This document shows, one piece after another, positions 1 to 19,443 of a stretch of 20,742 bases of DNA. The notes below the pieces were generated by a model. It was not told where the DNA came from. It saw nothing but the letters and a program-made list of their open reading frames with translations, and did no database searches. The stretch comes from a virus, in the IMG/VR virus record IMGVR_UViG_3300022602_000499, positions 1 through 20,742 of that record. One strand, given 5' to 3'. Made by a program: the position numbers and the translations under genes. Numbering within the stretch: the first letter of the stretch is position 1; every line of letters begins with the position of its first letter.

Positions 1-381
1 GTTAGTTCTACTACCTCCACCATAATTACCGCCTAATGCAGTAACACTAGCAAATACAGAATTATTACCTGGACTTCCGTTTATGTTGGTCTCGCCACCT
101 GTGCCACCTGCACCGCCTGTGCCAACTGTGACAGTATATTGTGTTCCTGGAGTTACAGATAATGAGCCAGTGAGAACCATACCGGCTCCGCCACCGCCAC
201 CTGCTCCATTGTCGTAGCCGTTACCACCACCGCCACCACCGCCAACCACCAAGTAATTTACAGATGTAACCCCGGGAGGTGCAGTCCATGTAGTGGTGCC
301 GCCAGTGGTAAATGAAACTATTCCATGTGCAATATCCGTCACATAGCCAACGTTGGTTAATTTAACTCCACTTATTATCAT
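1..381 (-). CDS. Glycine-rich virion protein, N-terminal part (3' end outside window)
   Basis: Reading the minus strand from the ATG at 381-379 gives 127 open codons that run off the left edge. The first ~20 residues (MIISGVKLTNVGYVTDIAHG) are followed by a stretch with TTTWTAPPGVTSVNYLVVGG and then long glycine runs. This W-T-A/V-P-x-G-V-T-x-V-x-Y-L-V-V-G-G-G-G pattern is the glycine-rich domain common in phage tail and fiber proteins. The start codon overlaps the stop of the large fiber gene by one base (TAATG), so the two are probably translated together. It is inferred to be another tail-fiber or adhesin component; the function-bearing C-terminus is not in view. Low-complexity composition limits family assignment, but the coding call is firm. 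Confidence 0.8.
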   Translation of the reverse strand, partial: MIISGVKLTNVGYVTDIAHGIVSFTTGGTTTWTAPPGVTSVNYLVVGGGGGGGNGYDNGAGGGGGAGMVLTGSLSVTPGTQYTVTVGTGGAGGTGGETNINGSPGNNSVFASVTALGGNYGGGSRTN

Positions 382-3300
382 TATGCTGTCTTCACTCCCC
401 AGATTGCCCAATTAAATCCATCTGATATTAATTCAAATAAAGTAGTATTGTTATTGCCCAAGGTTACTGTAGCAGTTCCAGTGCCACTGGTTGTTCCACT
501 GTAAGTAACAAGAATATTACCAGCCGGAGTGGTAAGAGTTATAGTACTAGCGGTATTAAGCCATAAAGTAATTTGTCCTTTATACACAGTGGGATTAGGC
601 AGTGTATAAGTTCCTGCCGCATTGATTTCTAATACACCACCATAAAAAGATGGGCTCACGGTTGAAGTGCCGCTTAATATCACCGATCCAGTTTGTACTC
701 TGCCACCATTAAACACCACACTGGCCGATGGCAATGTTATATTACCAGTATTGTCAAATGTACTTGAATAACTGCCAGCTTGTAGTGTAACATTGCTACT
801 GGTTCCGTATATGTTGCCATAATTGTTTGCAGTAATTCCAGTCAATGCCGATCCATTGCCCACAAAGTATGCAGCAGTTGCATTGCCAGTGACTGTGACA
901 CTCGATGTACCGTTTAGGGTCGACAGTATAGTTGTGCCATTAGAAACTATGTTGGCATAAGCAGGAATTGCTATGTTACCATCCATGCTGAACAACCAAT
1001 TGGCCACACCTTGACCACTATAGTTGGGATTGTAATTGCTTAGTATAACTGTAGAACCGGCGCCGCCTGGTAAGGTCAATACGTCGCCGTTCTTGTATCC
1101 CGTGCCGGGATTGACTATAACGTAGGAGTTGGGATAACCACCTGTGGCACCATAATTGGCTGTCATGCCTGTACCTGAACCACCTGTTAGTGATTGGTTA
1201 ACATATGGAGGACTGTTATATCCGCCTGCACCACTATAGGTACTTAGAAGATTCCAGGTACCTTGAGCACGTACTGATATATTGCCAGTGTTATTTCCAA
1301 TGTTGCCATAACTGTAAAGGTTACCGGAAAATATTGTTGATCCAGTGCTGGCGCCTACAGTAATAGTAGTTGCGGCAGGAAATATCGAAGCCGACGCCTG
1401 ATTTGTTGTGATGCTGGCTGAGGTATTAAGTGCTAGGCCATTGGTAGATGTTAACCCAACACCAGTGACAACCCCAGCACTAGTGATACCAACTGAGTTA
1501 TATGTAGTCAATGCGGTGCTGGTTAAAGCCATTCTAGTGCCCATGCCAGCTACTGCGTTAGCAGTACCGATACCCTGTCCGTTCCAATAGAAGCTACCTC
1601 CGTCTATGTAAAACTGTCCAGCACCATTAGAGTAGGTGTTGCGAATATACATAGCGCCGTTGCTACCAAAGTAAGCGTTGTTTAGAATCTGTGTGGCTGA
1701 TAAGTTTGTACCCGTGCCTGTACCAATTGTTGTATTGTTACCAATAAACACCTGTGTGATGTTGCTCTGTAATGGATATGTGGCCACATTGCCTACGTTA
1801 CCAATAAAGACGGCGGTGTTAGCACTCAACATTGCAACCACGCTGGCGTTACTGTATGTGCCTGATCCGCCACCACCCACAAATGCGGTACCGTTGGCAT
1901 AGAAGAATCCGGTGGCCAACACGTTACCAACAAATAAGTTGCCCTGTATGCCGGCGCCGCCTGCTACCTGTAGTGCACCGGTCGTGGTACTGGTACTTGG
2001 AGTTGTTCGATACAGTATCAAGCCCACATTGCTCTTGAAACGTGCCTGTTGATTGACCAAGCCTTGACCGTTGGTGCTGATCACCACGTCGGCTGCAGTA
2101 TCTGTTGTAATTAATAAATTACCGTTGTTGCTGGCAGTTCCAGTCACCAACAAATAGCCATCTAGTGGATAGTTGAGTTCGTTTCCGGTACCACCAACAA
2201 ACCCGCTGCTGTTGATACCCATGTCAATAAAGCCACTGTTGCTATTACCAATATCGGCAGTTGCAACAAAGTCAGTACTTGCTCGAGTTCCTGAGTTGAT
2301 ATTTTGATGATTTATCTGTGCATAATCATTAAAGTTTGTGCTGGCCTGTATAACTGTTTGCGGCTGATACGAATAACCCGAAACAATACCAGCGTAAATT
2401 GCACCAAAGCCGGCCACGTTGCCAGTGAAATTACCAGTTTGTATATTTTGCACTATGGCATTGCCCACATAGTTTATATTACCCGAAATAGTCAAATTAC
2501 CAGCAGTCAAGTTGCCCGAATAAGACGGCAAGTATGTGGTCAAGTAGTTAGATACTGATGTATTAAACGGAGTCTTAAATGTGCCGAGCGGAACTGTTTC
2601 CCAAATTGTGGGTTGACTTGGGTTGGTCAATGTGGCTGTACCACCACCAGCTTGCCCGTATCCGGTGCCAACGAATGTAAGTTGCCAATTACTTCCACTA
2701 TCTGTCACAGTGGCAATAGTCCATGGACCATATCCACTATTGTTGCTAACAATCCAGCCCACTTGTGGAGTTGGGTACGACCCTTTAGCAATAAAAATTG
2801 TGTTACCGCTAGCGCCCTCCCAGCCCACGGTATAGTAGTTTGGTACAAAGGTACTTGTACAATAGTACAGGTAGTTGTTGTCTACACGTATTGCCCCAGC
2901 AACATCACCCAAAGCACCAACTGAGGAACTGGGAGCTGATCCAGTCACCACCAGGTTGGCAAACGAGCCAAGCGGAGTCTGGAACGAACTGAACGGAATC
3001 GATTCCCAAATTGTGGGATAGACCGGATTATAGAATGTAACTGCTTGTCCTGTAATTACACCATTGTTTCCTATATATGCAGATTCTATGCCCCACGTTG
3101 ATCCATTATCAACAACACCAGTGATAGTTGTTGTGCTATTATATCCGCCCATACCATCAGGTGCATGAGGATATGTGTCTCCGGTTATGGTCCAACCAAT
3201 TTGTGGTTCAGGATAGCTGCCTTTGTCAATGTACCATATGCCATTAACATATTGTGTTTGTGACGTTGCTGAATAGTGTTGATCCGCATAAGTTGCGGTA

Positions 3301-5990
3301 CAGTGGTACAGATAGTCGGAGTCAACTCGAATCATGCCAGCAGTATCACCGGCACTGCCAGTCAACGCTACAGGTGCACCTCCTGTGATAGTCAAGTTAC
3401 CTACATTAACTGTACTAGAAGACAAATAAGCAGTCACATTGGAATTACCGTATGGTGTTACTGGCACATAGGCCGTGGTTTGCACAGTAGCATCTGGGAA
3501 TACGATATTTCCAGTAGTATCAAATACCCATTGATGTCCATTAAATGGTGTGTCTGGTAAAGTTACCCCAGTACCAATAGTCATGCTACCATCAGTCTGT
3601 GTACGAATATATTGTGCATCACTGCCCAAGAAAACGCTGGTTTGAGCCAAGTTGCCCGATGCCAGGTGTACATGATCGCCTTCGGTCATGGTTGGGTAAA
3701 CCAATAATTGTTGTGTGGGAGTGGATCCACCATGCGGTGTAAACACCATGGCCTGTCCGGTACCATTTGGACTCAGTGATTCACTGATGGTACTAAGATT
3801 AGGTAAAGTTATATTACCTGTGTTATTGAATGTCCAATTGGTGGTGTCAGCAGTGATGGTCACATTAGTACCAAGGCCGATTATGTCATTGCCCATGAAT
3901 GTGATGTCACCAGTGTTGGCGGCGCCGCCCACGATGCCGCTCAGGATACTGGTGCCATTGGCATAGTTGATTGAGGCTGTATTTGATGGCAAAGTTATAT
4001 TGCCATTTTCGCCAAATTCCCAAATCAACTCACTGGTGTTTTTGTTTGATTTTAGATATAAATTATTACCAGCAGCCAATGTGGTGTCGTTTAAATAAAT
4101 GTTTAGTCTATCATTACCGGAAACTTTGGCTAGGAATCCTGCCGATACCGAGGCCAACATGTTGCCGCCACTGTCGACATTTAGGTAACCGTTGTTAGTA
4201 CTGCCACTGTCAGGACTGAAAACAATGGCCTGTGTGCCATCTGCCGAGTTTGCAATTATGCTGCCCGGAACTATAAATTGTCCAGTGGTGTTAAATGTCC
4301 ATGTGTCACTGCCGGCATACAACTTGATACTGTTTGCACTTGACATCCAAGTTGTCGAACTATCTATACCAATAGCATACTGATATTGCCCGGGGTATAA
4401 GTTTATACGATTGCCGCCGGCGGTGCCAGGAGCGCCAACTGTGGTTGAACTAAATGATATCGAATTAGGCAACGTTAGTGTGCCAGCGTTATCAAAATAA
4501 TAATTGTAGGATCCTGCGGTGACCTGAGTAGAATTTGTTGAGGTCAACTGTATGCCACTTGGTCCTTCTAGTATCAAAATACTGTCTTCGTATATATTTG
4601 ATCCACCGCCCCAGGTGATGCTGCCTGATATGTTAACAGCGCCAGTTCCTATTGTGCCGGTTGTTGTAATTACATGACTGCCAAACGAGCTCAATAACGA
4701 TATTACGTTGGCATCAGTATAATTACTACCGCCGCCACTGCCACTCACTTGACTACCATTAACCAACAAGTTACCGGTACTGTCAACAGTTAGTGTACCT
4801 CCCGGGAATGTGATCACATTGCCATCTTCAATTGTGATGTTGCCAAGATAAAAACTAGGTGCCGGAGCCACTGTGGGATTGGCATCTACCCACACCGAGC
4901 CAATGTTGGCATACATTCTACCGTCTGTGGTGTCATACCATAATGATCCTGTGCCAGTTGTGGGCGCAACATTGCCAACGTTGGCCGATTGCCCGCTCCA
5001 GGCAGTGGTTTGTCTTGTGTTGTCCGGGAATGTTATGCCGCCAAGTTTGTCAAACGTCCATACATTTCCGCCACCGGTAAGAAAATTTGTACCAATATAG
5101 GCCGCGTAGTTGTCGGCCTCGATCCATTGATCGCCGGTGTGGCTATTAATGCCGGCATAATCACTAGAGCCAGCACCAGCGCCAATACTTGTACCGCGCC
5201 CGTCACTGTAGGTATCGCCTATGACACCACCTTGCGGTGTCGTTATCTCACCGTTGGTGCCAAATGTCCAAGTTTGAAATGGAAGGTCGGCGCCATCATT
5301 TACTGTTAGGTGAACCGGATACCAACTATTAATACCCAATTGACCGCTACCGCCCAGTCCCGGTACTTTATAGTCGACGTTACCGGCTAAAGATAAAGTA
5401 CCATTGGAACCCAATGATACAGTATAACTACCATTAACTAATGTACTGCCTGTGCCCCCACCTCCACCGCTGATACCGGCCAGAATGCTTTGACCGTTGG
5501 CATATACTATGGGATTGGCCACGTCGGCCAGCACCAATTCTCCGTACTGATTTAGATGTAGCAGTCCGCCCGGTGTGTGCACAGTAATTGCTCCTGTGGT
5601 TTCAACCTTGATGCCGCCGGTGTTGGCATGATTATACATGCCCACATCACCACTATATCCATTACCAGTAATGCCGTAGATGTTGGATGTGGTTATCACA
5701 TCAGGAATTATGGCAGTGACTGGAAACTGTGCTAGATAGTCAGCCACATTGGCATTGCCGTACAGTTCCATTGATGTAACTACAGCAGTCAAATTGGCCA
5801 CATTACTTGACAAGTTGCCAAAATCACTAGCTGTGGTCAGCAAGTGTCCGCCAGCTATGTTTCCATCTTGTACTCTAATGTTATGTAAATCTGTGTCTAT
5901 TACCAGTTCGCCCAAGGGACCGGTATAGGTGCTTGAGTGGGCAGTATTGCCTCTTTTAAGTAATATTGTTTCAATGTTTATGTTTGCCAT
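381..5990 (-). CDS. Giant repeat-rich tail fiber protein, 1,869 aa
   Basis: The first ~50 residues (LLKRGNTAHSSTYTGPLGEL..DTDLHNIRVQDG) match the short N-terminal domain that starts many phage tail fibers and the Bordetella phage major tropism determinant; it usually attaches the fiber to the baseplate. The rest is beta-rich, Gly/Asn/Thr/Ser-heavy and built from repeats: about nine W/Y/S-x-F-x-x-x-G-x-I-T-L/F-P units, often followed by YANGTSIL, plus a late VGNGSALTG motif typical of T4-like fibers. Residues ~860-1000 and ~1005-1135 form a diverged tandem pair (AGxIRVDxxYLYxCT ... PTIWExxP). Residues ~1220-1300 form a distinct non-repetitive domain. There is no signal peptide and no transmembrane segment. 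It lies between two other structural genes with TAATG overlaps at both ends. Role inferred: trimeric fiber for host recognition. Receptor specificity cannot be read from sequence. Confidence 0.85.
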   Translation of the reverse strand: MANINIETILLKRGNTAHSSTYTGPLGELVIDTDLHNIRVQDGNIAGGHLLTTASDFGNLSSNVANLTAVVTSMELYGNANVADYLAQFPVTAIIPDVITTSNIYGITGNGYSGDVGMYNHANTGGIKVETTGAITVHTPGGLLHLNQYGELVLADVANPIVYANGQSILAGISGGGGGTGSTLVNGSYTVSLGSNGTLSLAGNVDYKVPGLGGSGQLGINSWYPVHLTVNDGADLPFQTWTFGTNGEITTPQGGVIGDTYSDGRGTSIGAGAGSSDYAGINSHTGDQWIEADNYAAYIGTNFLTGGGNVWTFDKLGGITFPDNTRQTTAWSGQSANVGNVAPTTGTGSLWYDTTDGRMYANIGSVWVDANPTVAPAPSFYLGNITIEDGNVITFPGGTLTVDSTGNLLVNGSQVSGSGGGSNYTDANVISLLSSFGSHVITTTGTIGTGAVNISGSITWGGGSNIYEDSILILEGPSGIQLTSTNSTQVTAGSYNYYFDNAGTLTLPNSISFSSTTVGAPGTAGGNRINLYPGQYQYAIGIDSSTTWMSSANSIKLYAGSDTWTFNTTGQFIVPGSIIANSADGTQAIVFSPDSGSTNNGYLNVDSGGNMLASVSAGFLAKVSGNDRLNIYLNDTTLAAGNNLYLKSNKNTSELIWEFGENGNITLPSNTASINYANGTSILSGIVGGAANTGDITFMGNDIIGLGTNVTITADTTNWTFNNTGNITLPNLSTISESLSPNGTGQAMVFTPHGGSTPTQQLLVYPTMTEGDHVHLASGNLAQTSVFLGSDAQYIRTQTDGSMTIGTGVTLPDTPFNGHQWVFDTTGNIVFPDATVQTTAYVPVTPYGNSNVTAYLSSSTVNVGNLTITGGAPVALTGSAGDTAGMIRVDSDYLYHCTATYADQHYSATSQTQYVNGIWYIDKGSYPEPQIGWTITGDTYPHAPDGMGGYNSTTTITGVVDNGSTWGIESAYIGNNGVITGQAVTFYNPVYPTIWESIPFSSFQTPLGSFANLVVTGSAPSSSVGALGDVAGAIRVDNNYLYYCTSTFVPNYYTVGWEGASGNTIFIAKGSYPTPQVGWIVSNNSGYGPWTIATVTDSGSNWQLTFVGTGYGQAGGGTATLTNPSQPTIWETVPLGTFKTPFNTSVSNYLTTYLPSYSGNLTAGNLTISGNINYVGNAIVQNIQTGNFTGNVAGFGAIYAGIVSGYSYQPQTVIQASTNFNDYAQINHQNINSGTRASTDFVATADIGNSNSGFIDMGINSSGFVGGTGNELNYPLDGYLLVTGTASNNGNLLITTDTAADVVISTNGQGLVNQQARFKSNVGLILYRTTPSTSTTTGALQVAGGAGIQGNLFVGNVLATGFFYANGTAFVGGGGSGTYSNASVVAMLSANTAVFIGNVGNVATYPLQSNITQVFIGNNTTIGTGTGTNLSATQILNNAYFGSNGAMYIRNTYSNGAGQFYIDGGSFYWNGQGIGTANAVAGMGTRMALTSTALTTYNSVGITSAGVVTGVGLTSTNGLALNTSASITTNQASASIFPAATTITVGASTGSTIFSGNLYSYGNIGNNTGNISVRAQGTWNLLSTYSGAGGYNSPPYVNQSLTGGSGTGMTANYGATGGYPNSYVIVNPGTGYKNGDVLTLPGGAGSTVILSNYNPNYSGQGVANWLFSMDGNIAIPAYANIVSNGTTILSTLNGTSSVTVTGNATAAYFVGNGSALTGITANNYGNIYGTSSNVTLQAGSYSSTFDNTGNITLPSASVVFNGGRVQTGSVILSGTSTVSPSFYGGVLEINAAGTYTLPNPTVYKGQITLWLNTASTITLTTPAGNILVTYSGTTSGTGTATVTLGNNNTTLFELISDGFNWAIWGVKTA

Positions 5991-6490
5991 TAGATAGTTC
6001 CGCCGTCAAATGTGTATGTGGTAGATTCTGGAGGTGGTGCACTCTCAGAATAGTATGCTGGCAACACTTCTAGATCTAATGGAACTCCGTAGTTGTCATC
6101 GATATACAAGGGGCTAGATATGTTGGTGCTGGTTTTTGTTAGTTTAAAAGTTAACTTGTAGAATCTATTTTCTAAACTGCTGATTGTGGCGTTATCAAGT
6201 GTGAAATTGCCTTGTCCCAGTTGTATATTTCCCTGAGCAAAGCTGACTGCGTAGGCATTCACAGTGACTTGATTGGTGGGATCTTGTATCTGTGCCTCTA
6301 CAGTGTAAGCACTGAGATCAACACTTTTTTGATCCTGATTACGGATGATAACTTGTATGGGATTGTCTATGCCTTGATAGACTTTGATAGGACGACTATA
6401 CACAACTCGGTTCCTTGTAGTAAATATGCTGGGATCAAAAACTTGAACCTCGGCTGTATTTGGATATAAATATGCTTTGACAGTGATCAT
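5990..6490 (-). CDS. Virion structural protein, baseplate/fiber-associated (166 aa)
   Basis: The ATG is at 6490 and the stop overlaps the ATG of the giant fiber gene by one base (TAATG). The protein is soluble and beta-strand rich, with a segment PIKVYQGIDNPIQVIIRNQD followed by LSAYTVEAQIQDP. This resembles the N-terminal beta-sandwich seen in baseplate-upper-protein (BppU-like) phage structural proteins; the similarity is a pattern judgement. The C-terminus carries a proline/serine-rich tail. Because it directly precedes the fiber gene, it could be a fiber connector, a fiber-associated baseplate protein or a chaperone. A GATAAATA octamer on the same strand 17-24 bases upstream is a possible late promoter. 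No strong Shine-Dalgarno is present; AAAG lies in the expected region. Confidence 0.72.
   Translation of the reverse strand: MITVKAYLYPNTAEVQVFDPSIFTTRNRVVYSRPIKVYQGIDNPIQVIIRNQDQKSVDLSAYTVEAQIQDPTNQVTVNAYAVSFAQGNIQLGQGNFTLDNATISSLENRFYKLTFKLTKTSTNISSPLYIDDNYGVPLDLEVLPAYYSESAPPPESTTYTFDGGTI
6465..6472 (+). promoter_or_regulatory. T4-type late promoter octamer TATAAATA (plus strand)
   Basis: The sequence is an exact match to the T4 late promoter core recognised by gp55-type phage sigma factors. It lies within the coding start of the 166-aa minus-strand gene and points at the only plus-strand gene. A transcript would begin near 6478, which argues against the earliest possible TTG start (6477) of that gene. 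It could be a chance match, because the same bases encode Y-L-Y on the other strand. Confidence 0.5.
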
Positions 6491-6506
6491 TTTATTGTCT
6501 TTAACA

Positions 6507-6514
6507 TATTTATC
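6507..6514 (-). promoter_or_regulatory. Late-promoter-like octamer GATAAATA (minus strand)
   Basis: Read on the minus strand this is GATAAATA, one base from the T4 late consensus, ending 17 bases before the ATG of the 166-aa structural gene at 6490. It would drive the virion genes leftwards with a very short leader. One mismatch and AT-rich context keep this tentative. Confidence 0.35.
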
Positions 6515-6521
6515 GGATACT

Positions 6522-6896
6522 GTGGAAGAACACTACAAGCAACTACTAGGCGAATACCCCTTTATTACTTTTTTGACCTACGGGAACAACGAGTACATAG
6601 GTATCATACAAAATTTTGATGAAGTAATCACTACCATTTATGATTTTGGATTACTCAAAGATCCCGGGCTTAAAAAAAGCTATTTAGAACTGGGAGAAAC
6701 TTGGTGGTGGGAAAGCAATAGGTTGATACCTATCAATGTGTTTTTGAAGCAGGATTGGGCGCAGTTTAGGCCCTATCTACGCACCATGAACAGTAAGGAC
6801 GTAGAGATCAAGATGGGGCCCTATGTGAGCCTAAAAGAAATGGCTACCAAGCGTAGCAAGAGAAAGTCAATTACCTTGGTTAGAAAGGTTGCTTAA
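6522..6896 (+). CDS. Conserved-looking phage protein of unknown function, lone plus-strand gene (~124 aa)
   Basis: The open frame runs from TTG 6477 to the TAA at 6894-6896. The GTG at 6522 (VEEHYKQLLGEYPF...) is taken as start because upstream residues look non-protein-like, overlap the divergent gene and would precede the transcript start from the TATAAATA at 6465. TTG 6477, GTG 6483 and TTG 6495 remain possible. The protein is compact and mixed alpha/beta, with conserved-looking core LELGETWWWESNRLIPINVF and a basic C-terminus (KRSKRKSITLVRKV). There is no membrane segment and no recognised domain. The basic tail may bind nucleic acid (inference). Its last 30 bases overlap, tail to tail, the end of the mini-DnaE gene. 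Codon use resembles its neighbours. Coding call is fairly firm, function unknown. Confidence 0.7.
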   Translation: MEEHYKQLLGEYPFITFLTYGNNEYIGIIQNFDEVITTIYDFGLLKDPGLKKSYLELGETWWWESNRLIPINVFLKQDWAQFRPYLRTMNSKDVEIKMGPYVSLKEMATKRSKRKSITLVRKVA

Positions 6897-7457
6897 CAAG
6901 TTCATGTTTACACACACAAGATGTGCATAACTGACTGCGTGTGACTTCTTGAAAAAATAACTGTCATCTATAGGACGTTGCCATATAGTTTCAGCAACTT
7001 CACTCCAAGTACGACCTATCAAATGTCGTTTGGCCGGACGTATAATGGCCAAGAACATGGCCATTCGTGGTATGGAATTTACTGCCTCGGGCATACGTAT
7101 CAAAGTATCATAGTGATTGCCGATATGTATCAGTTGGCTGCAGAATTCACTATCATACAATCGATCCCAAGCCGGCTCCTGTGCCATCAGTTCAACCAAA
7201 TGCGATTCGCTCTTTATCTGTGTATATAATGACACATTCAAAAAGTCCAATTTGGTATAGCCTAGATCTTCTGCTGTATTGTAATCCAGGGATGCTTGTC
7301 CCGTAAATGGATCTTGCGGTATCTCGGTAACATAAATTCCGGTGTTGTGTCTGGTCAACCGACCGTCTCGTAGTATACTGGCAGCAGTATGCGGCAACAA
7401 CGTCAAGGCTGCATCACGATTGGCGAAGTCTATGTCAATATCTGACTTAAATTTCAT
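6867..7457 (-). CDS. Miniature DnaE-like (Pol III alpha palm-like) protein, 196 aa
   Basis: The start is ATG at 7457, chosen because it overlaps the stop of the zinc-finger gene as ATGA and follows AGAAGG seven bases upstream; the open frame extends to 7490. Motifs appear in the same order as in bacterial DnaE. DIDIDF at residues 6-11 (DnaE D-F-D-V-D-F with two catalytic Asp) is followed by RHNTGI at 36-41 (DnaE RHATGI), then KLDFLNV at 69-75 (DnaE KFDFLGL, third catalytic Asp), IIRPAKR at 138-144 (LFRPGPL) and KKSHAVSYAHL at 170-180 (NKSHSAAYAL). All three metal-binding aspartates seem to be kept (D8, D10, D71). Bacterial DnaE exceeds 1,100 residues; the PHP exonuclease, OB and tau-binding parts are absent here. 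It sits downstream of gp62 and the zinc-finger gene. Whether it polymerises is unknown; it may be a regulator, a host-clamp decoy or a tiny polymerase. Family call inferred from motif order. Confidence 0.72.
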   Translation of the reverse strand: MKFKSDIDIDFANRDAALTLLPHTAASILRDGRLTRHNTGIYVTEIPQDPFTGQASLDYNTAEDLGYTKLDFLNVSLYTQIKSESHLVELMAQEPAWDRLYDSEFCSQLIHIGNHYDTLIRMPEAVNSIPRMAMFLAIIRPAKRHLIGRTWSEVAETIWQRPIDDSYFFKKSHAVSYAHLVCVNMNLLSNLSNQGN

Positions 7458-8164
7458 AGGCCGGCCTTCTGTAAAACATGTTTGCACCATTCGGTATCAG
7501 CAACATAGTCACGAAATTTCTGATCCCAGTAGTCGGGATTGATCCAGGGCATTATGATTTCCATTTGCTCTCCATTGAGCGATTCAAGGAATTCAAGCCC
7601 ACTTGTGCAATTATAGATAATCCAAGGACTAATACGACCGGTAGTGATATGAAAGCAAACACGATTAGGGTTAGCATATCGAAAATAGTCACTAAACCCG
7701 TTTTTAAGATCTGAGTGTTCTTCTGCATAGTCGGTCATTTCCTTTAAAGCACGTTCCAGTGCATCTTGCGTGGCTTCACGTCGCACATATTCGGCCAGCC
7801 ACTCGCCGTAAACTGTGTCCCGGCACCAAAAATCTATTTTTTTATTATTGCGTAGTAGCCAATCAAGGAAAGCAGTAAAATTAATACACCGTATAGATTG
7901 GCAGTATCGTCCAAATTTGACGAAAGCATTATAATAAGGGCTAGCCACAAAAGTTTCATAATTTTTTAACCGGGCACTACCCTGCGTGGTTTCATAAAAT
8001 CGCAGATATGCTTTTAACCCAAGTTGTACTCCTACTTCTTTTTCCTGTTGCCATCGGCGTTTGTTTTCACACAAGTGAGCTATTAATGTGGTTTCTTTGC
8101 GAAATGGCTTTTCGCAGTAGCGACATTTATAGCTCGGCTTTGATTCTTCTATCGTCCCAACCAT
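7454..8164 (-). CDS. Zinc-finger protein of T4-like phages, unknown function (236 aa)
   Basis: Near the N-terminus, Y-K-C-R-Y-C at residues 12-17 followed by H30 and C32 gives a C-x2-C-x12-H-x-C zinc knuckle of the C2H2/C2HC kind. The remaining ~200 residues are mostly helical with many aromatic residues (SPYYNAFVKFGRYC, FLDWLLRNNKKIDFWC, TGRISPWIIYNC). I recognise the overall pattern from conserved hypothetical proteins of marine T4-like phages but know no assigned function. It starts inside the last 38 bases of the gp62 gene and ends in an ATGA overlap with the mini-DnaE gene, so the three are probably expressed together. A DNA- or replisome-binding role is inference from context. The start ATG at 8164 has no strong Shine-Dalgarno, consistent with coupling to gp62 translation. 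Confidence 0.75.
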   Translation of the reverse strand: MVGTIEESKPSYKCRYCEKPFRKETTLIAHLCENKRRWQQEKEVGVQLGLKAYLRFYETTQGSARLKNYETFVASPYYNAFVKFGRYCQSIRCINFTAFLDWLLRNNKKIDFWCRDTVYGEWLAEYVRREATQDALERALKEMTDYAEEHSDLKNGFSDYFRYANPNRVCFHITTGRISPWIIYNCTSGLEFLESLNGEQMEIIMPWINPDYWDQKFRDYVADTEWCKHVLQKAGL

Positions 8165-8636
8165 GTTTACGTGCCAATTCTTTTAAATCTTCTTTGGTAT
8201 TAACTCGTTCCATTAAACGTATCTCGTCCTCTTTGGCTTCGGGATACATTAGGCGCAAAAACTTCAAACTTTTGTTGTCACTATCTTTTTTCTTTGCACT
8301 GATCCACTGATGATGTTGTTTGCCCAAGTCTGGACTCACTGTTGTGGCCAGCAACCACTGTAGTTTTTTATGCTTGGTTGTGCTGATGTCAAAAAAGTTA
8401 CGATTCAAGTTGTCATTTAAATTGGTCAAGTAGTAGCGTTCTAGATCAGGATCACCGGTCACGCTACTGCCCCAACGTATCATCAAAAATGGACTAAAAG
8501 ATTTTTGTTCTTCTGCAGTCATACTGTCGTAGTAGCCACGATCCTTGCGATCAAATGCAGCCATTTCGTTTCCGATATACAACTTTGAACTGTAATCTGT
8601 CGGCGCTCGCGGTTTAGTGGGTTTCTTTGTTGCCAT
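8127..8636 (-). CDS. 62: Clamp-loader small subunit, T4 gp62-like (169 aa)
   Basis: In T4 the gp44/gp62 complex loads the sliding clamp gp45; gp62 is the non-ATPase small subunit. This protein is close to the T4 length (187 aa) and shares its layout: a basic N-terminus, F-S-P-F-L-M-I-R, then KLQWLLATTVSPDLGKQ..QWI, which lines up with the T4 Y-L-M-A-A-V-P-x-G-K-x-x-x-K-W-A region, and a final helix rich in Lys/Glu. The start is set at ATG 8636 (MATKKPTKP), which follows the previous stop as TAAAATG; the frame opens upstream at a TTG (8657) with no reason to prefer it. Partners gp44 and gp45 are not in this window. The next gene overlaps the 3' end by 38 bases. Assignment rests on recalled family features rather than an alignment. 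Confidence 0.65.
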   Translation of the reverse strand: MATKKPTKPRAPTDYSSKLYIGNEMAAFDRKDRGYYDSMTAEEQKSFSPFLMIRWGSSVTGDPDLERYYLTNLNDNLNRNFFDISTTKHKKLQWLLATTVSPDLGKQHHQWISAKKKDSDNKSLKFLRLMYPEAKEDEIRLMERVNTKEDLKELARKHGWDDRRIKAEL

Positions 8637-8637
8637 T

Positions 8638-8931
8638 TTATACTCTATGATGTTCAACTGTGGTATTCTCTTGTTGGATCAAGTGATATAGCATTATAAC
8701 ACGTTCAAGTTCGGCTTGTAAAGTGGGATTTGTTCGAGCCAGTCTACGAATATTGCCCCACATTTGGTCTTCTCGCAAGTGGTCTATTGTGGGCCTACCA
8801 TCACAGGTTCTTGCATCATAGTCGTGTCCCACTGCAAAGCGTGTGTTGGGATCGGCACCAAACTCACGTGCATAGGTAGTGCCGTCTATTTTTTCATACA
8901 CATAGGTTGCACCCGGCCTTAAAGTTCCCAT
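8638..8931 (-). CDS. Small conserved-looking phage protein, unknown (97 aa)
   Basis: The protein begins MGTLRPGATYVYEKIDGTTY and ends in a helical region (QAELERVIMLYHLIQQEN). The motif TCDGRPTIDHLREDQMWG in the middle is rich in charged residues. No known domain, cysteine cluster or membrane segment is visible. The start is ATG 8931, which overlaps the stop of the 166-aa gene upstream as TAATG; a GTG six bases earlier is less likely. It is followed after one base by the gp62 start (TAAAATG). Its place between UvsW and gp62 suggests a role in replication or recombination, but that is only context. Confidence 0.75.
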   Translation of the reverse strand: MGTLRPGATYVYEKIDGTTYAREFGADPNTRFAVGHDYDARTCDGRPTIDHLREDQMWGNIRRLARTNPTLQAELERVIMLYHLIQQENTTVEHHRV

Positions 8932-9443: not shown

Positions 9444-10904
9444 TTATTTTTGCCATTCCACTTTTTCCACAGTGAATGGATAGTTGGCTTCTCGATAAAA
9501 AGCCTTGCGTTTTGTCAGATGACGTTTTGCGAATTTGCAGGTAGACGTTATGTCCCAGATCTCTACATGGTCTTTGTCTTCTGCTTTTCGAATACCTCGT
9601 CCAATGCTTTGTATAACCCTAACAAAGCTCTTTCCGGGTTCCACCAAAACCAGATTAAAAATACGAGGGATATTAATACCCACTGCGGCCACACCGTAAG
9701 TCGCCACAATAATCTTGTCAGTAGCAGTTGCCACCTCGTCATACTCTGCTTGTCGTTTTGTTCCTTTTGTTGCTCCACTTACAAATACCGCCTTATCACC
9801 TAAGAGTTCTACCAGTAGTTTACCTGTTGCAACTCGATCTACGAGCACTAGAGTGTTACCAGTTTCATTTACATTAGCAACAAACTTGCTGATATACGCT
9901 ATTCGATCCTGTGTATCTAATAAGTATTTTAGCTCTTGTTGGTAATCTTTATATTCGACATAGTCCACCATCTGTACAATGTTGACATGACAGTTGGCCA
10001 AATGTCCCGCTTCTTGAAGATCACTAGCACTGAGTTTTCCAACTACAAGTCCTAGACTACAAAATATACTTATCTTTTCAAAATCCTCTTTAGGAATTGT
10101 TCCGGTCAAGCCCCAACGAATTGGCACATGAGCAAACACTCCAGTGAGCAAAGTTTTGAGTGCATCGGCCTTGGCCATGTGAACTTCATCTACCATGACA
10201 CATACTACACCTTCAATAAAGTCTCGAATGTCAACTTCGGCTTCACCGCTCTTGGTCATCTTTAACATGTTGTTTAGACTTTGCCAAGTACAAATAGTGT
10301 GTGTTCGATTGTATTCTTTTCTATCGCCAAAATACACACCCACATCCAGACCAAGATTTACATAGTCAGCCTCGGTCTGTGTCACTAGACTCTTGTTGGG
10401 CACTATCACAATACTTCGTCCATAGGGCTCAACGCTACGACTCAGGGCCGCAGTCATTATGGTCTTGCCTGCGCCTGTGGCCACTTCCTGTATGCTTTGC
10501 GGATTGGTTAAAAAGTTATTGAGAATCTGCGGTTGATAATCTCTGAGTATGATGGGTTCTCCCGCTCTAGGATGTCCCTTGGGCCAAGTCTTGTCCGCAA
10601 ATGTATCTTCTCGTATTTGGGTAAAGTTAAACGTGGTACTGTATTGACGTTGATCTATTACCTCAATGTCGTAGTTTTCGGCTTCCAGTATGGGAATGAT
10701 ATCAGGTAGCAGATTGATATAGCTGCTACCGCCCAGCTGAAAGAACGCAATTTTGCCATCCCAACGTCCCAGTCTAACCGCAGGAGTATAACGAGCCTTG
10801 GGATCTGAGTATTTGAATTTGTCTACTAGACGCTTTCGTGTGCTCAGTTCCAAGCCTTCGATTTTTACATTCACCTCATCTTTGATTATTAGTCGAGCCT
10901 GCAA
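9444..10904 (-). CDS. uvsW: UvsW recombination DNA/RNA helicase (486 aa)
   Basis: UvsW is a T4 superfamily 2 helicase that unwinds R-loops and branched DNA, regresses stalled forks and helps the switch from origin- to recombination-dependent replication. Length matches the family (T4 ~500 aa). The N-terminal ~115 residues include the family-typical ..RYTPAVRLGRWDGKI. Walker A ATGAGKT is at 142-148, the DEVH box at 239-242, motif III-like GLTGTIPK at 265-272 and motif VI QSIGRGIRK at 432-440. The frame starts at TTG 10904, seven or eight bases after a clear AAGGA, so a TTG start is likely real and may lower expression. The first 16 bases overlap the preceding 389-aa gene. It is transcribed from the promoter at 12064-12093 with that gene. 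Confidence 0.95.
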   Translation of the reverse strand: MQARLIIKDEVNVKIEGLELSTRKRLVDKFKYSDPKARYTPAVRLGRWDGKIAFFQLGGSSYINLLPDIIPILEAENYDIEVIDQRQYSTTFNFTQIREDTFADKTWPKGHPRAGEPIILRDYQPQILNNFLTNPQSIQEVATGAGKTIMTAALSRSVEPYGRSIVIVPNKSLVTQTEADYVNLGLDVGVYFGDRKEYNRTHTICTWQSLNNMLKMTKSGEAEVDIRDFIEGVVCVMVDEVHMAKADALKTLLTGVFAHVPIRWGLTGTIPKEDFEKISIFCSLGLVVGKLSASDLQEAGHLANCHVNIVQMVDYVEYKDYQQELKYLLDTQDRIAYISKFVANVNETGNTLVLVDRVATGKLLVELLGDKAVFVSGATKGTKRQAEYDEVATATDKIIVATYGVAAVGINIPRIFNLVLVEPGKSFVRVIQSIGRGIRKAEDKDHVEIWDITSTCKFAKRHLTKRKAFYREANYPFTVEKVEWQK

Positions 10905-12058
10905 ATCGTTTTTCCTTTATACTTGGTATTATATACTTCGTTGTTCAAGTACACAACCTTTTCAGCTTGTTGTACCCACAACTGTCGGTCTCCGCCAAAC
11001 ATCATGGTGGATGTACTTACCAATAACGGTATTCTATCAACTCGGTTCTTGTATATCTTGTTGGTATATATTAATTTATGCTCGGGCAAGATCTCTTGAT
11101 TGGCACTGTCAAGACCCACAGTTTCGCTCTCATCAAAATGACGCCTGAATCGAGTGATTAAATCAGTAGAAAGATCAGGTTCAAACAGGTATAAGGGCAA
11201 TCTATTGGTGGCTCGAGCATAGCGAACAATTTCACCTATGGTATCTTCGTTGATGTTGTTTTTCTTTAGGCTCAACACACTGTTGGTGCACAGACTGTAG
11301 AATCGTATGCCACTGTCCTTGATCACAATTTTTTCTATTTCTTTATTGACTGTATAGCCTAGCACCGAACTCCAGTCCAACAATTTTACTATGTTGTCGT
11401 CACCAAATCCGCCCGCCACAGTTTCAATGTATTCAATCAGGCCCAGCTCAGCATTGGTGATTCTAAATCCTGAAGCGGCTATTTGTAGTTCTATGGCATA
11501 CGGTTCTGATTCAGCGGCCAACACTTTCTGCATGAGGTCTTCAACTTCGGGATCAATGTTGAATTGATTTGATGTGGCAAACACGTACAAACAGGTCAAG
11601 TTGTGTTCGGTCAATGCACTTTGCCACACACGATTGGGTTTGTCAAACTTCAAGAACCCGCGACTTTCCTTGGCCACTTGTCTGATGGATTCTATGTAGT
11701 TGTCCTTGTAGGGGAATCTTAAATTGAGCACATCGTTTTCGATCCAAAGACGTGTACTACGATCAATTGTGCGGAATGGCAATCTAAATTGAGCATTTTC
11801 ATGAATGGGCGCTACACTGATATTTTTCTTTAGTAACTGGCGTTCATATTTTAGTACCAACATCTTGGCCAAGCTGGCTTGCCGATCTGTGTAGCCAATA
11901 TTGGAACTGGATTGATTGCTCAAACTTTCTACCATGTTTACATCATAACGTGCCAGGCTAATGGGCGACTCTTGAGCAAACACTAACCCGCCAGCATCAC
12001 GCCAACCCGAGATATACTCGATATAGTCTTCAACATATTGGAATGTAGTTAAATTCAT
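10889..12058 (-). CDS. Unknown protein co-transcribed with and overlapping uvsW (389 aa)
   Basis: It is the first gene of the UvsW operon and overlaps uvsW by 16 bases. No ATPase motif, cysteine cluster or membrane segment is visible. Residues ~111-160 (LNLRFPYKDNYIESIRQVAK ... RVWQSALTEHN) have the pattern of the HARP-like substrate-recognition module of SMARCAL1-type annealing helicases: a beta strand, F-P-Y, I-x-x-I, then F-x-x-x-x-R-x-W. This is a weak, pattern-only resemblance. A helical middle and an alpha/beta C-terminal half (RIPLLVSTSTMMFGGDRQLW) follow. The ATG at 12058 has no Shine-Dalgarno and begins only six bases after a TATAAT box, suggesting a leaderless message. A helicase accessory or DNA-junction-binding role is inferred from position. 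Confidence 0.8.
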   Translation of the reverse strand: MNLTTFQYVEDYIEYISGWRDAGGLVFAQESPISLARYDVNMVESLSNQSSSNIGYTDRQASLAKMLVLKYERQLLKKNISVAPIHENAQFRLPFRTIDRSTRLWIENDVLNLRFPYKDNYIESIRQVAKESRGFLKFDKPNRVWQSALTEHNLTCLYVFATSNQFNIDPEVEDLMQKVLAAESEPYAIELQIAASGFRITNAELGLIEYIETVAGGFGDDNIVKLLDWSSVLGYTVNKEIEKIVIKDSGIRFYSLCTNSVLSLKKNNINEDTIGEIVRYARATNRLPLYLFEPDLSTDLITRFRRHFDESETVGLDSANQEILPEHKLIYTNKIYKNRVDRIPLLVSTSTMMFGGDRQLWVQQAEKVVYLNNEVYNTKYKGKTICRLD

Positions 12059-13760: not shown

Positions 13761-14789
13761 TTATGCTTTCATGCAAGTGGTACGAGCCATAGCAGTCCAT
13801 TTTTCTGGAAAGCTCTTGCGTAACTGTGCAATCTTGATTGCCATGCGTAAACTTACTTCACGCAATTTATTCTTGTTAAAGTCCATGAATGCAATGATCT
13901 CGTCCTGTGCAGTCTGCTCAAGATCCATGTCCTGGAACAAGGCGCCATCGCTAGCAATCTGTTTGATACGCAACAATTTGTCACGCATGGTGTCTAGGGT
14001 AAGATCCAAGTAGTGACATCTGGATTGTAGTGCATCCAAGTGATCACGCAACTTTTGTGATTTCATGCTGTCAAACTTAAGGTTGGTAATAAAGATTACT
14101 GAGCCGTTAAAGTTGAAGCTATCTGGGATACCTTCACGTCTAAGTGTGCTAGACTCGCTCAACCACGAAATCTTGCGCTTTTTACCTGAGTCCAGGGCAC
14201 CTTTTAACAAGTTGAGTGATACGTCATCAAGCAAAATACTGTCACAGTCGTCAAATACTACTACACAATTTGAGTCCGAGTATTTGTACAGAGTTTGGTA
14301 CAGGCCAATTGGAGTAGCTGAACCTTTTACAACTTCGGCTCTTAGTCGCTTGCCGGCAATTTGATCAAACAAGCAGGCCTTTTCAATAATTTGCTCGACA
14401 CCGTAGCTTTTACCTACGCCAGGAGGACCTGACACAATCATGGCACGAATGTCGCCGTTGGTGGCAGCCTTGGTCATTTCGTCTAGAATTTCAAAACGTT
14501 CTCTAATGCGAGCAATTACTTCGTCATCAGTTTCGGCACCAGCCGAGGCCACTTCGGTTGCAGTTTGGGGCAGGGTTGCATCACCCTCAGTTACAAATTG
14601 ATAGTCCATAGGTCCTGCTACGTTGATGCGAATTGTATCGCTAAATCCTGGGAAAGTGCCGCCATTTCGAACAGTAACAAAGCCGCCTTTGGCACCAGGT
14701 TTGAACTGTTCCACAAGCTCAAATACCTTGCCTGAACAATCTTGTTTACGATAATCACCAGACACAATGCGAATAAAACTTGCTGACAT
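13761..14789 (-). CDS. AAA+ ATPase (342 aa)
   Basis: A classical AAA+ core is present: Walker A GPPGVGKS at 121-128, Walker B VVVFDDCDS at 176-184, and sensor-1-like FITN at 233-236, followed by a helical lid. The first ~85 residues form a separate beta-rich region (IRIVSGDYRKQDCSGKVFEL) that may bind DNA or a partner. Family members use ATP to remodel protein or DNA complexes; the target here is unknown. It is not gp44 or terminase by motif layout. ATG 14789 follows AGGAG by seven bases, and the gene has its own sigma70-type promoter at 14822-14875. It is expected to be expressed early. A hairpin follows the gene. Confidence 0.85.
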   Translation of the reverse strand: MSASFIRIVSGDYRKQDCSGKVFELVEQFKPGAKGGFVTVRNGGTFPGFSDTIRINVAGPMDYQFVTEGDATLPQTATEVASAGAETDDEVIARIRERFEILDEMTKAATNGDIRAMIVSGPPGVGKSYGVEQIIEKACLFDQIAGKRLRAEVVKGSATPIGLYQTLYKYSDSNCVVVFDDCDSILLDDVSLNLLKGALDSGKKRKISWLSESSTLRREGIPDSFNFNGSVIFITNLKFDSMKSQKLRDHLDALQSRCHYLDLTLDTMRDKLLRIKQIASDGALFQDMDLEQTAQDEIIAFMDFNKNKLREVSLRMAIKIAQLRKSFPEKWTAMARTTCMKA

Positions 14790-15198: not shown

Positions 15199-15486
15199 TT
15201 ATTCGGTGATCACGCCCAGGATGTCGTCTTCTTTGAGTATGACAAATTCTTCTTTGTTAACTTCGACCTTGTGTCCACTAAGACTATGGAACAGGATACG
15301 TGCACCGGGAGCGACCTTGATGGCCTTTACTGATCCATCGGCCATGTTCTCGCCGGGGCCAATGGCCAATACCGTGCCTTTGTCGGCATCTTCAGCAAAG
15401 TTATCAGGAATAACAATACCGCCAGCACTGACAGTTTCAGGTTCGTCACGTCGGACTACGATTCTATTTAATATGGGTTTTAGCAT
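15199..15486 (-). CDS. groES: GroES-like co-chaperonin (95 aa)
   Basis: GroES caps the GroEL barrel; phages bring their own version (T4 gp31 is a functional analogue) to fold capsid protein. This protein has full GroES length and clear sequence identity features: start LKPILNRIVVRRDEPE, mobile loop SAGGIVIPDN at ~20-29 with the GroEL-binding G-I-V-I, then DKGTVLAIGPG and ARILFHSLSG..V, and closing EFVILKEDDILGVI. It is closer to bacterial GroES than to divergent gp31. ATG 15486 follows AAGGA by five bases and starts eight bases after the end of the glycan cassette, so it is probably the last gene of that operon. Expected cytoplasmic partner: host GroEL. Confidence 0.93.
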   Translation of the reverse strand: MLKPILNRIVVRRDEPETVSAGGIVIPDNFAEDADKGTVLAIGPGENMADGSVKAIKVAPGARILFHSLSGHKVEVNKEEFVILKEDDILGVITE

Positions 15487-16317: not shown

Positions 16318-17319
16318 TTACATTAACCTATCTTTCCAAGTTTTGGGTGTCAGCTCGTTTATAATTTCTACCGGGTAACTGTAATCAAACGGTAGTGTTC
16401 CACGCTCGCGAATGTAGGCTATGGTTTGTGCTATACCTTCTTCTAGGCTGGTTGTGGTTTGATAGTTCAACAGTTGTCTTGCTTTGTCGGCACTACAGGT
16501 GGCATGTCTCACTTCTCTTGGGCGATCTTCCATGTACACAGTTTCTCCAGTGTACCCGCACTCACGTGCAATAATTTCGCTCAATTCTTTGATGCTGATG
16601 GTGCCTTCGTCAGGACCAATATTGATAATTTGTCCAACCACACCCGGATCCAGGGCCATCTTTTCCAGACACTGAATACAATCGCCCACATAACTAAAAC
16701 ATCTAGTTTGCAAACCATCTCCGTATATTATGGCCGGCTTGCCCTGTAGGTTACGATTGATCATGATACTCATGACATTGCGAAATGGATCTTCGTAGCG
16801 TTGTCTTGGTCCCACGATATTGTGTGGTACTGCAATATTCCATTCCATGCCATGTGTTTCGCACAAAATCTTTAGCACATCTTCGCCGGCTACCTTGGCC
16901 ACTGCATAGGGATCAACCGGACGCGGGGTCATGTCTTCGGTAAAGGGATTTTCTTGATTGCCGTAACGTGCCATGCTGGAGCAGTATACAAAACGTTTTA
17001 CATTGCATTGTATTGCGGCACTGATTGTGCTCACACTGGCTTCAAATATATTTTTTGTAATAAAGCTGGGACTGAACACACTGAGTCCTTCGTGTGCAGT
17101 TGCTGCGGTATGTATCACTATGTCACTGCCAGCAATGGCTCGTACCATTTCGGTATTGTTGCAACAATCAACTTGGTAGAATGTGACCGACTTGGGCACA
17201 TTGTCCATGTAACCGCCAATCAAGGTGTCGTTGCCGGACACTTCGTGTCCCAGCTCCAGCATACGATCTGCTAGGTGACTGCCTAGGAATCCTGCTACTC
17301 CTGTAATAAAAATTTTCAT
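16318..17319 (-). CDS. NAD-dependent sugar epimerase/dehydratase, SDR family (333 aa)
   Basis: Extended SDR enzymes act on nucleotide sugars (UDP-glucose 4-epimerase, dTDP-glucose dehydratase and relatives). The NAD-binding G-x-x-G-x-x-G is GVAGFLG at 7-13. D70-like strand SDIVIHTAA, catalytic Ser/Tyr/Lys as CSS near 113-115 and YAVAK at 138-142, and the sugar-side motif FSYVGDCIQCL are all visible. Length is typical. ATG 17319 follows AAGGA with ordinary spacing, 10 bases after the GT9 gene stop. It likely supplies an epimerised nucleotide sugar for the neighbouring transferases. Exact substrate cannot be decided from the sequence. Confidence 0.9.
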   Translation of the reverse strand: MKIFITGVAGFLGSHLADRMLELGHEVSGNDTLIGGYMDNVPKSVTFYQVDCCNNTEMVRAIAGSDIVIHTAATAHEGLSVFSPSFITKNIFEASVSTISAAIQCNVKRFVYCSSMARYGNQENPFTEDMTPRPVDPYAVAKVAGEDVLKILCETHGMEWNIAVPHNIVGPRQRYEDPFRNVMSIMINRNLQGKPAIIYGDGLQTRCFSYVGDCIQCLEKMALDPGVVGQIINIGPDEGTISIKELSEIIARECGYTGETVYMEDRPREVRHATCSADKARQLLNYQTTTSLEEGIAQTIAYIRERGTLPFDYSYPVEIINELTPKTWKDRLM

Positions 17320-17329
17320 TGTTTTTCCT

Positions 17330-18214
17330 TTATAATTGTTTTAGTATGGCTTCAGCAATTTGTTCGGTGTCCCACAGTTTGTTACAACGGAAATCACCGT
17401 GTATACAATTGATACCACGTACTGGTCGAGCCTGATTGACATTGCATCCCACGCAGTCAATATTGGCCTGTACCGCAGTCCAGTTCCATGTAGGGTCCAA
17501 TTTGCGTATTGGCATAATATTCTTGGGTGGATTGTGTGTGAGCAATCCGATCACGTGTGTTTTACTGCCAGCAGCAATCTGAAACGGTCCTGAATCTATG
17601 CCCACAAAACACTGTGCATGATCCAGTAGATAGCGCAACTGTTGTGGCGTGTACTTGGCTCTAGCGTCAACAAATAACGGATGATCCAGAGTTAGATCAG
17701 TAGGTCCACCCACTGTGACTATTTTGAAGTCGGCACGTTGTTCAAACACCTTGGCAAAGATATCGCACCAGATTTCTAGATCGATATTTTTCAAGGGCCA
17801 ATGCCAGTGTCGCATGTGCACAGCAATAAACGGCATGGCAATTTCGGCAATGTCTTGATCCACGGTGTCACGGTCATTGTCGTCCACATGTAGGTCAACT
17901 GCTTTATTTAATTGGTTTGCGCCAAACACTCGATAGAACATGGTGTCAATGTAGTGATTGTCGGGACTGAGCTCGTAGGCATCATCAAGATTGTAGACCA
18001 CATCAAAGTCGGCCGGATTGGTCTCGCCCCAGTTACGCAGGTCTCGTATATAGGGATTGTTTTTGTAAACCAAGGGAAATTCAGTTTCTACAGTGATGGC
18101 ACATTGTGCATTGTGTCGTTTGTACAGTTCGCGAACTATGCCAGTGCTCATTACAACATCGCCTAGTGCAGCACGACGTCGAACCAGTATGGTGGTGGGA
18201 GTTTCTATATTCAT
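17330..18214 (-). CDS. Glycosyltransferase family 9-like protein (294 aa)
   Basis: The N-terminus TILVRRRAALGDVVMSTGIV (GDVVMSTGIVREL at 18-30) and the C-terminal GIDSGPFQIAAG at 205-216 are the hallmarks of GT9 (heptosyltransferase-type, GT-B fold) enzymes that act in lipopolysaccharide core assembly. Length is a little shorter than WaaC/WaaF (~320-350). The C-terminal region has C254, C257, C270 and C277, possibly a metal site, which is not usual for WaaC. ATG 18214 overlaps the stop of the methyltransferase gene as ATGA. A role in modifying host LPS or a phage glycan is inferred. The sugar transferred is unknown. Confidence 0.82.
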   Translation of the reverse strand: MNIETPTTILVRRRAALGDVVMSTGIVRELYKRHNAQCAITVETEFPLVYKNNPYIRDLRNWGETNPADFDVVYNLDDAYELSPDNHYIDTMFYRVFGANQLNKAVDLHVDDNDRDTVDQDIAEIAMPFIAVHMRHWHWPLKNIDLEIWCDIFAKVFEQRADFKIVTVGGPTDLTLDHPLFVDARAKYTPQQLRYLLDHAQCFVGIDSGPFQIAAGSKTHVIGLLTHNPPKNIMPIRKLDPTWNWTAVQANIDCVGCNVNQARPVRGINCIHGDFRCNKLWDTEQIAEAILKQL

Positions 18215-19443
18215 TCTTTTATTATACTAGGAAAGTATCGTAAAAACACGTCGCTTGGATGATCTCGTCGAGTTTTGATTTTGTTTTTGATTTCTCGATA
18301 AAAATTCCAGGCCAAGGGCACAAACAAGATGCGTGTGTTGGGATCAGTGAATTGGTCTAGATAATCGATACTGACTACCGGTATTGCAGTTCCTGGACAG
18401 TACAGGCCCTGTTTGAGTGGATTGTCATCTATGACTGCATCTAGTTCAATGTCACTGGCATTAATCAAGGTCATGCCTTTTGCAGCAGCACCATAGCCCA
18501 CAATGGCATAGCCCATTAACCGGTATTGATCAATTTCGGCCTTGAGTTTTTTCAACAGATCACGTACCCCATCGGCCCAGGTACTGTATGTGCTTTCGTT
18601 TGCAAGACCCTGTGCTGATTCCATGGCCAGAATATTTTGCATTCTATATCGGTTTAGTTCGTGTTTGCTCAATACAAATATGTAACTGGTTCCGTGTATG
18701 GGAGTTTTAACCACATCCACTAGATGCAGTCCGGCACGTTCGGCCAGCCTACGCATACTTTCAGCATTGTAGAAACTGATGTGTTCGTGATAGATTGTGT
18801 CAAACTCGCCATTGAGCACCATGTCGGCCTGGCTGGTGCTGATAAAGATCTTGCCATTGGGTTTGAGATATTCCTTGGCCAACTGCAAATACTCTAAGGG
18901 TTTAGGAATGTGTGCAAATGCATTTTGACTGGATATTACATCAAACTTGTGATGTATCTTGTCAGCAGTGGCCGAATTCCAGTAGCCCAACCAAGTGGTA
19001 TGTCGCTTGTTAGTTTCTTCAAACAGGTTTTCGGCAGGATCAACACCAAATGTAGTATAACCTTTGCGCTTGAACGCATCCAGTTGACTGCCATCATTGC
19101 ATCCAATATCCAGCACACTGGGCTTGCCATAGTCATGATAGTTCACATGCTGCTCGTCGACAAACCTGGCATACCAATCCATGTAGTCCACATAGGTACG
19201 ACTGGTACCACTCACATAAAGATAGTATGTGTAGATCACTGCAGGATCCACTGCATGAGTCAACTGTAGATGATTACAGTCCCCACAACGATTCACTGCC
19301 AGCGGGAACCACTCGTCTTGTTCACCGACCCCGGCATGTGTTTGAAAGTTATTAGCCAAGGGCTGATCTCTAAGATCCAGTGTGAGTGTCAGTGCACCGC
19401 CACCACAGGCCAAGCAAGATAAAATACTTTTACAATTCTTCAT
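18211..19443 (-). CDS. SAM-dependent C-methyltransferase-like enzyme, three-domain sugar type (410 aa)
   Basis: Domain order matches sugar C-3 methyltransferases of the TylC3/TcaB9 type. A zinc-binding N-terminus with C10, C13, C53 and C56 comes first, then a class I SAM domain (motif I VLDIGCNDGSQ at 110-120, GVDPAENL acidic loop, FDVISSQNAFAHIP), then a C-terminal Rossmann-like domain (YAIVGYGAAAKGMTLIN, then DAVIDDNPLKQG and PGTAIPVVS). Length (~410) is the family norm. The enzymes methylate nucleotide-linked deoxysugars or act in related glycan modification. ATG overlaps at both ends (19443 with the oxygenase gene, 18211 with GT9) place it in one translational unit. The precise sugar is not determined. 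Confidence 0.9.
   Translation of the reverse strand: MKNCKSILSCLACGGGALTLTLDLRDQPLANNFQTHAGVGEQDEWFPLAVNRCGDCNHLQLTHAVDPAVIYTYYLYVSGTSRTYVDYMDWYARFVDEQHVNYHDYGKPSVLDIGCNDGSQLDAFKRKGYTTFGVDPAENLFEETNKRHTTWLGYWNSATADKIHHKFDVISSQNAFAHIPKPLEYLQLAKEYLKPNGKIFISTSQADMVLNGEFDTIYHEHISFYNAESMRRLAERAGLHLVDVVKTPIHGTSYIFVLSKHELNRYRMQNILAMESAQGLANESTYSTWADGVRDLLKKLKAEIDQYRLMGYAIVGYGAAAKGMTLINASDIELDAVIDDNPLKQGLYCPGTAIPVVSIDYLDQFTDPNTRILFVPLAWNFYREIKNKIKTRRDHPSDVFLRYFPSIIKE

Follow-up and report, generated by a model that had tools for sequence, protein, structure and literature searches.

The 196-residue protein analysed here is an environmental member of the known family of split Pol III alpha subunits. 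Its gene lies in a 20,742-nucleotide stretch of viral DNA (IMG/VR record IMGVR_UViG_3300022602_000499), which we call the window. We consider it likely that the protein is the C-terminal half (hereafter C-half) of a two-protein family C core of giant T4-related phages, and that together with its N-terminal counterpart (N-half) it constitutes an auxiliary polymerase beside gp43. Iyer et al. (2021; PMC7824862) have already described such a split, minimal Pol III alpha for group 2.2 of the jumbo phages; they made the same split-polymerase proposal and suggested the enzyme as a model of the ancestral Pol III module. To this we add where exactly the protein is split, how its residues register with those of DnaE, structural models of the two halves, counts of their co-occurrence, and the environmental spread of the family.

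The motifs from which the first-pass annotation recognised the protein (DIDIDF, RHNTGI, KLDFLNV, IIRPAKR, and KKSHAVSYAHL) are all present and in the order it gave. Residues 2-190 match phrog_11778 ("DNA polymerase", 197 positions) with E=1.1e-60, and the protein shows the features of that family, a DxDxD start followed by K-x-D, RPxK, and KKSH. We compared nine DnaE sequences with 93 C-halves and 32 N-halves using HHalign. The C-half aligns over residues 36-143 with E. coli DnaE 510-642 (Prob 96.7, E=3e-10). Two weaker collinear pieces (4-22 with E. coli 399-419, and 152-187 with 738-774) are each non-significant alone, and we accepted them because of their order and their motif matches; the alignment reaches the third segment of the fingers only through one such weak piece. 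In controls with forty column-shuffled profiles per half, the highest Prob was 12 for one half and 2.6 for the other. The comparison with DnaE profiles thus gave a collinear Pol III alpha alignment well above the controls. DnaE was found for the C-half neither by Pfam nor by phmmer and hmmsearch of the PDB, and NCBIfam returned only TIGR00594 (E=0.045). The Pfam and PDB searches miss DnaE because the similarity is below the reach of single-profile sequence search. The sole PDB rows for the C-half were two PII proteins (E=0.94), which we rejected as chance similarity around "IRP".

The predicted structure of the C-half was obtained with AF2 from an alignment of 67 window and IMG/VR sequences (pLDDT 92.4, pTM 0.81), and the palm and fingers of DnaE match it along its entire length. 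The first nine Foldseek matches of the model are all Pol III alpha. With VIA-align, the 13 best rows consist exclusively of Pol III alpha and PolC chains (Z 9.5-5.9), ahead of the next fold at Z 4.5. On E. coli DnaE (2hnh), the model covers residues 397-784 (Z 8.6, 188 residues). The first-pass annotation had named a non-polymerase fold, or aspartates far apart in a predicted structure, as what would refute it. The model did not refute it: the fold is that of Pol III alpha, and the aspartates sit on strands 7-11 and 70-74.

The alignment and the model place the catalytic residues in a precise register (Table 1). In E. coli numbering, with PDFDVDF beginning at residue 400 and KFDFLG at residue 553, the HHalign alignment pairs D401, D403, D405, and D555 with D6, D8, D10, and D71 of the C-half. 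The published catalytic triad of E. coli Pol III alpha, D401/D403/D555, maps to D6, D8, and D71. The first-pass annotation was thus right that three catalytic aspartates are kept, but its assignment of them to D8, D10, and D71 was shifted by one motif position. The C-halves are mostly 186-216 aa long across the 93 homologues, and the fingers motifs that they have in common with DnaE, RPxK and KKSH, are invariant or nearly so among them.

Table 1. Position of the C-half gene, its active-site motifs, and neighbouring genes in the window.
Feature	Position	Strand	Description
C-half CDS	6867-7457	-	196 aa, ATG start; catalytic Asp palm strands and condensed fingers; phrog_11778, HHalign, AF2/structural matches
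D6-I-D8-I-D10 strand	7428-7442	-	E. coli D401/D403/D405; invariant in 93/93; catalytic Asp on strand 7-11 of the model
H37-x-x-G40	7338-7349	-	Counterpart of DnaE KHAGG (E. coli 510-514); H37 and G40 invariant in 93/93
K69-L-D71	7245-7253	-	E. coli K553-F-D555, third catalytic Asp; K69 and D71 invariant in 93/93; strand 70-74 of the model
R140-P-x-K143	7029-7040	-	Counterpart of fingers RPG (E. coli 639-641); R140, P141, and K143 invariant in 93/93
FKKSHAVSY (169-177)	6927-6953	-	Counterpart of DnaE FNKSHSAAY (E. coli 756-764); PHROG matches over 152-190; H173 invariant in 93/93
Upstream gene	7454-8164	-	236 aa; weak N-terminal C2H2-like zinc-finger match (phrog_11058)
Small convergent gene	6477-6896	+	Overlaps the 3' end of the C-half gene; phmmer homologues
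UvsW-type helicase	9444-10904	-	Member of a conserved replication/recombination neighbourhood; same order in phages

The presence of three catalytic aspartates in a Pol III palm fold places the C-half in the family C (DnaE/PolC) superfamily. It is not a complete DnaE: it has 196 aa and no GRGS, and its model spans E. coli 397-784 only. Nor is it a complete palm alone, because the GRGS half is absent from it and is a separate gene (phrog_11127) in every large relative tested. The earlier reading of the protein as a stripped-down DnaE palm, possibly a minimal polymerase, is therefore borne out by the profile, the predicted fold, and the invariant catalytic residues, but it has to be revised in that the protein is a half only. 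The other half is exemplified by CBB_328 of Pectobacterium phage CBB, a protein of 172 aa that the section of the CBB genome paper dealing with it describes as a truncated Pol III alpha (PMC5259590, 2017). CBB_328 matches Pfam DNA_pol3_alpha (E=2e-8) and phrog_11127. It carries GLGRGSS, which contains the GxGRGS motif that is invariant in 32/32 N-halves. Its last residues are EFLKW, a point at which DnaE goes on with FLNPERVSMPDFDVDF, and the C-half begins with MKFKSDIDIDF. The two are therefore complementary parts of a single palm.

Models of the two halves locate the cut. The AF2 model of the N-half is of moderate quality (pLDDT 79.7, with lower values at the C-terminus and near the GRGS segment), and above Z 2.4 it matches only Pol III alpha and PolC chains (best match Z 10.0; DnaE 274-393 of 2hnh, Z 8.6). 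HHalign places N-half residues 95-171 on E. coli 317-393 (Prob 97.9, E=5e-13). The ranges aligned to the N-half and to the C-half abut within 3-4 residues in the E. coli, M. tuberculosis, Taq, and PolC chains (274-393/397-784 in 2hnh, 306-413/416-808 in 5lew, 294-455/458-841 in 2hpi, and 825-965/968-1296 in 3f2b). The position of the cut is common to all these chains and lies directly before the catalytic strand.

The two halves occur together across large phages. A tblastn search with the C-half returned 63 phage records, none of them reaching 60% identity and each covering at least 80% of the query. They include RaK2, 121Q, PBECO4, GAP32, CBB, PA5oct-like phages, Atu_ph07, Phosso, SCTP-2, XacN1, and CM1, and their hosts range from Agrobacterium to Vibrio. 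IMG/VR contains 552 stretches related to the C-half. We analysed a set of 14 records with large genomes (288-490 kb; ten isolates and four IMG/VR contigs), each of which encodes a single C-half along with a family B polymerase and gives one significant match to the N-half. A search for a full-length DnaE in these 14 records gave none, since in every one of them the N-half alone produces a PF07733 match above the curated cut-off. Of the listed phage records with a C-half, 60 in total, 59 also list an N-half, and the one that does not is 109 kb long. Because some records are duplicate or near-identical genomes, the independent cases of co-occurrence number fewer than 59. That a DnaE-like palm beside a family B polymerase is unexpected, as the first-pass annotation remarked, holds in general; for this phage group the combination was already published (PMC7824862).

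Some records show further particularities. A 167-kb contig (record G006) encodes both split halves and an extra single-chain compact DnaE-like protein of 557 aa (L180:669-2342; PF07733, E=2e-42), whose N-terminus is close to the palm, with no room for a PHP domain. In phages Cassandra (L083) and Atu_ph07 (L085), the family B matches are in two open frames (825 + 379 aa and 578 + 418 aa, respectively), and gp43 itself seems to be split. Many GenBank entries of jumbo phages annotate the C-half gene (L091:17035-17685 and its homologues) as "hypothetical protein" or "putative membrane protein", and such labels hide the polymerase pair.

Roughly 15-240 kb separate the genes of the two halves, and their neighbourhoods differ; we counted this against the two-protein reading, since such an arrangement does not by itself imply joint expression. 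In annotated isolates, the N-half gene is found a few genes upstream of a gp44-like clamp-loader gene or of another AAA/P-loop gene, and it often adjoins a GroES gene. The C-half gene of most isolates is located between uvsW (or the genes after uvsW) and the genes of the primase and the gp41 helicase, with a different arrangement in XacN1. The window, a 20.7-kb fragment, holds the C-half only: a search of it revealed no N-half and no family B polymerase. The TGA of the upstream gene overlaps the ATG of the C-half gene (ATGA). Eight isolated jumbo phages carry a convergent homologue of the small gene (phmmer E=2e-40 to 2e-9) immediately after the C-half gene, with the two one gene apart in XacN1. 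The neighbour at 8127-8657 had been taken for gp62; relatives of this gene occupy the same place in jumbo phages, but none of the tools gave gp62.

Other parts of the window can be described briefly. A GroES-like gene (15199-15486) lies near the gene of an AAA+ ATPase (13761-14789; phrog_1250, weak clamp-loader similarity). The N-half gene of the isolates lies directly upstream of a GroES gene and gp44; in the window that place is taken by a different gene, encoding 273 aa without a PHROG match. The 1869-aa repetitive protein encoded at 381-5990, also without a PHROG match, is probably a tail or surface fibre. The gene of a 389-aa protein without significant family match (10889-12058) overlaps the start of the UvsW gene. 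Finally, a row of genes at 16318-19443 encodes a nucleotide-sugar epimerase, a protein resembling glycosyltransferases, and a methyltransferase, which suggests a glycan-modifying cassette.

From the homology, the predicted fold, the complementary split point, the co-occurrence of the halves, the residue invariance, and the purifying selection, all observed here, we infer heterodimer formation, polymerase activity, and a cellular job. The N-half would supply the GxGRGS helix that holds the triphosphate of the incoming nucleotide, and the C-half would supply the three metal-binding aspartates (D6, D8, and D71) and the fingers residues, such that the heterodimer would have a single active site of the Pol-beta type. 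Once assembled, the enzyme would be devoid of the PHP domain, of most of the thumb, and of the clamp-, OB-, and tau-binding C-terminus. Owing to these losses, it would be distributive and suited to short synthesis. Its most likely role is a low-processivity auxiliary one, in gap filling, primer extension, or repair, while gp43 would replicate the genome. The near-absent thumb may leave too little grip on DNA. We give roughly even chances to a fuller version of this scenario. In it, neither of the two proteins (some 170 and 195 aa) is active by itself, and a thumb-less family C DNA polymerase arises when they come together, with no intein involved. Its Pol III-type catalytic core would be exceptionally small, the supply of either half during infection could act as a switch of its activity, and it would share the work with the family B replicase.

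Other functions can be weighed against the same evidence. The halves might assemble into a non-templated nucleotidyltransferase on a Pol-beta-type core, involved in primer handling, end tailing, or nucleotide signalling. This would accommodate the complete set of active-site residues in an enzyme deprived of thumb, clamp-binding, and OB parts, as well as the family B replicase already found in related genomes. We regard it as unlikely, because such an enzyme has no obvious need for the DnaE fingers motifs RPxK and KKSH, conserved here, and because both half genes sit among replication genes. A decoy of the host Pol III, a fragment that would block replication in the host by binding DNA or the partners of host DnaE, was among the earlier suggestions and has in its favour that the protein is small and resembles part of the host enzyme. 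We find it very improbable given that the catalytic aspartates are kept in 93/93 homologues and the complementary half is retained alongside in 14/14 genomes, whereas the DnaE domains contacting the clamp and tau are absent and the hosts are as distant as Agrobacterium and Vibrio. Decay of a captured bacterial dnaE would explain why the protein is far shorter than DnaE but is hardly conceivable for a gene with hundreds of relatives in IMG/VR, an active site invariant down to 27% pairwise identity, and purifying selection relative to its closest relatives (dN 0.065, dS 0.70, dN/dS around 0.09). We thus rejected the mimic and decay readings on conservation.

The two-protein family C polymerase is the reading that we retain, and our search of the open-access literature found no experimental or biochemical study of the split enzyme. 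If the halves make up an active enzyme, they would mark the minimum for a bacterial-type replicative polymerase, and two unrelated polymerase families would be working in one viral genome. The split point, the residue register, and the list of isolates make the idea of an ancestral Pol III module directly testable.

Compared with bacterial DnaE (1160 aa in E. coli), the C-half has the palm aspartate strands and the KxD, RPx, and KSH fingers motifs in the same order and the same predicted fold, but it lacks the PHP domain, most of the thumb (approximately E. coli 433-510), a fingers segment of about 95 residues, and the C-terminal clamp/OB/tau region. Bacterial DnaE is a single chain, whereas the phage palm is cut in two between E. 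coli 393 and 397. A split DnaE exists in cyanobacteria, where dnaE-n and dnaE-c are two distant genes whose products are rejoined by a split intein. The cut is elsewhere in that system, and the phage halves stop and start right where the DnaE homology does, leaving no space for an intein. In phage CBB, CBB_328 is the N-half partner of a C-half whose gene carries the label "putative membrane protein", and the section on CBB_328 in the genome paper draws no link between the two (PMC5259590). The closest known system is the split Pol III alpha of group 2.2 (PMC7824862), whose two families, judging from their description in that paper, correspond to phrog_11778 (C-half) and phrog_11127 (N-half). 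The protein of the window belongs to the same family and has the same size; in its large relatives, the enzyme is likewise split into two distant genes and accompanied by a family B polymerase. It differs from the isolates of this group in coming from an uncultured phage and in being only about 30-52% identical to their C-halves.
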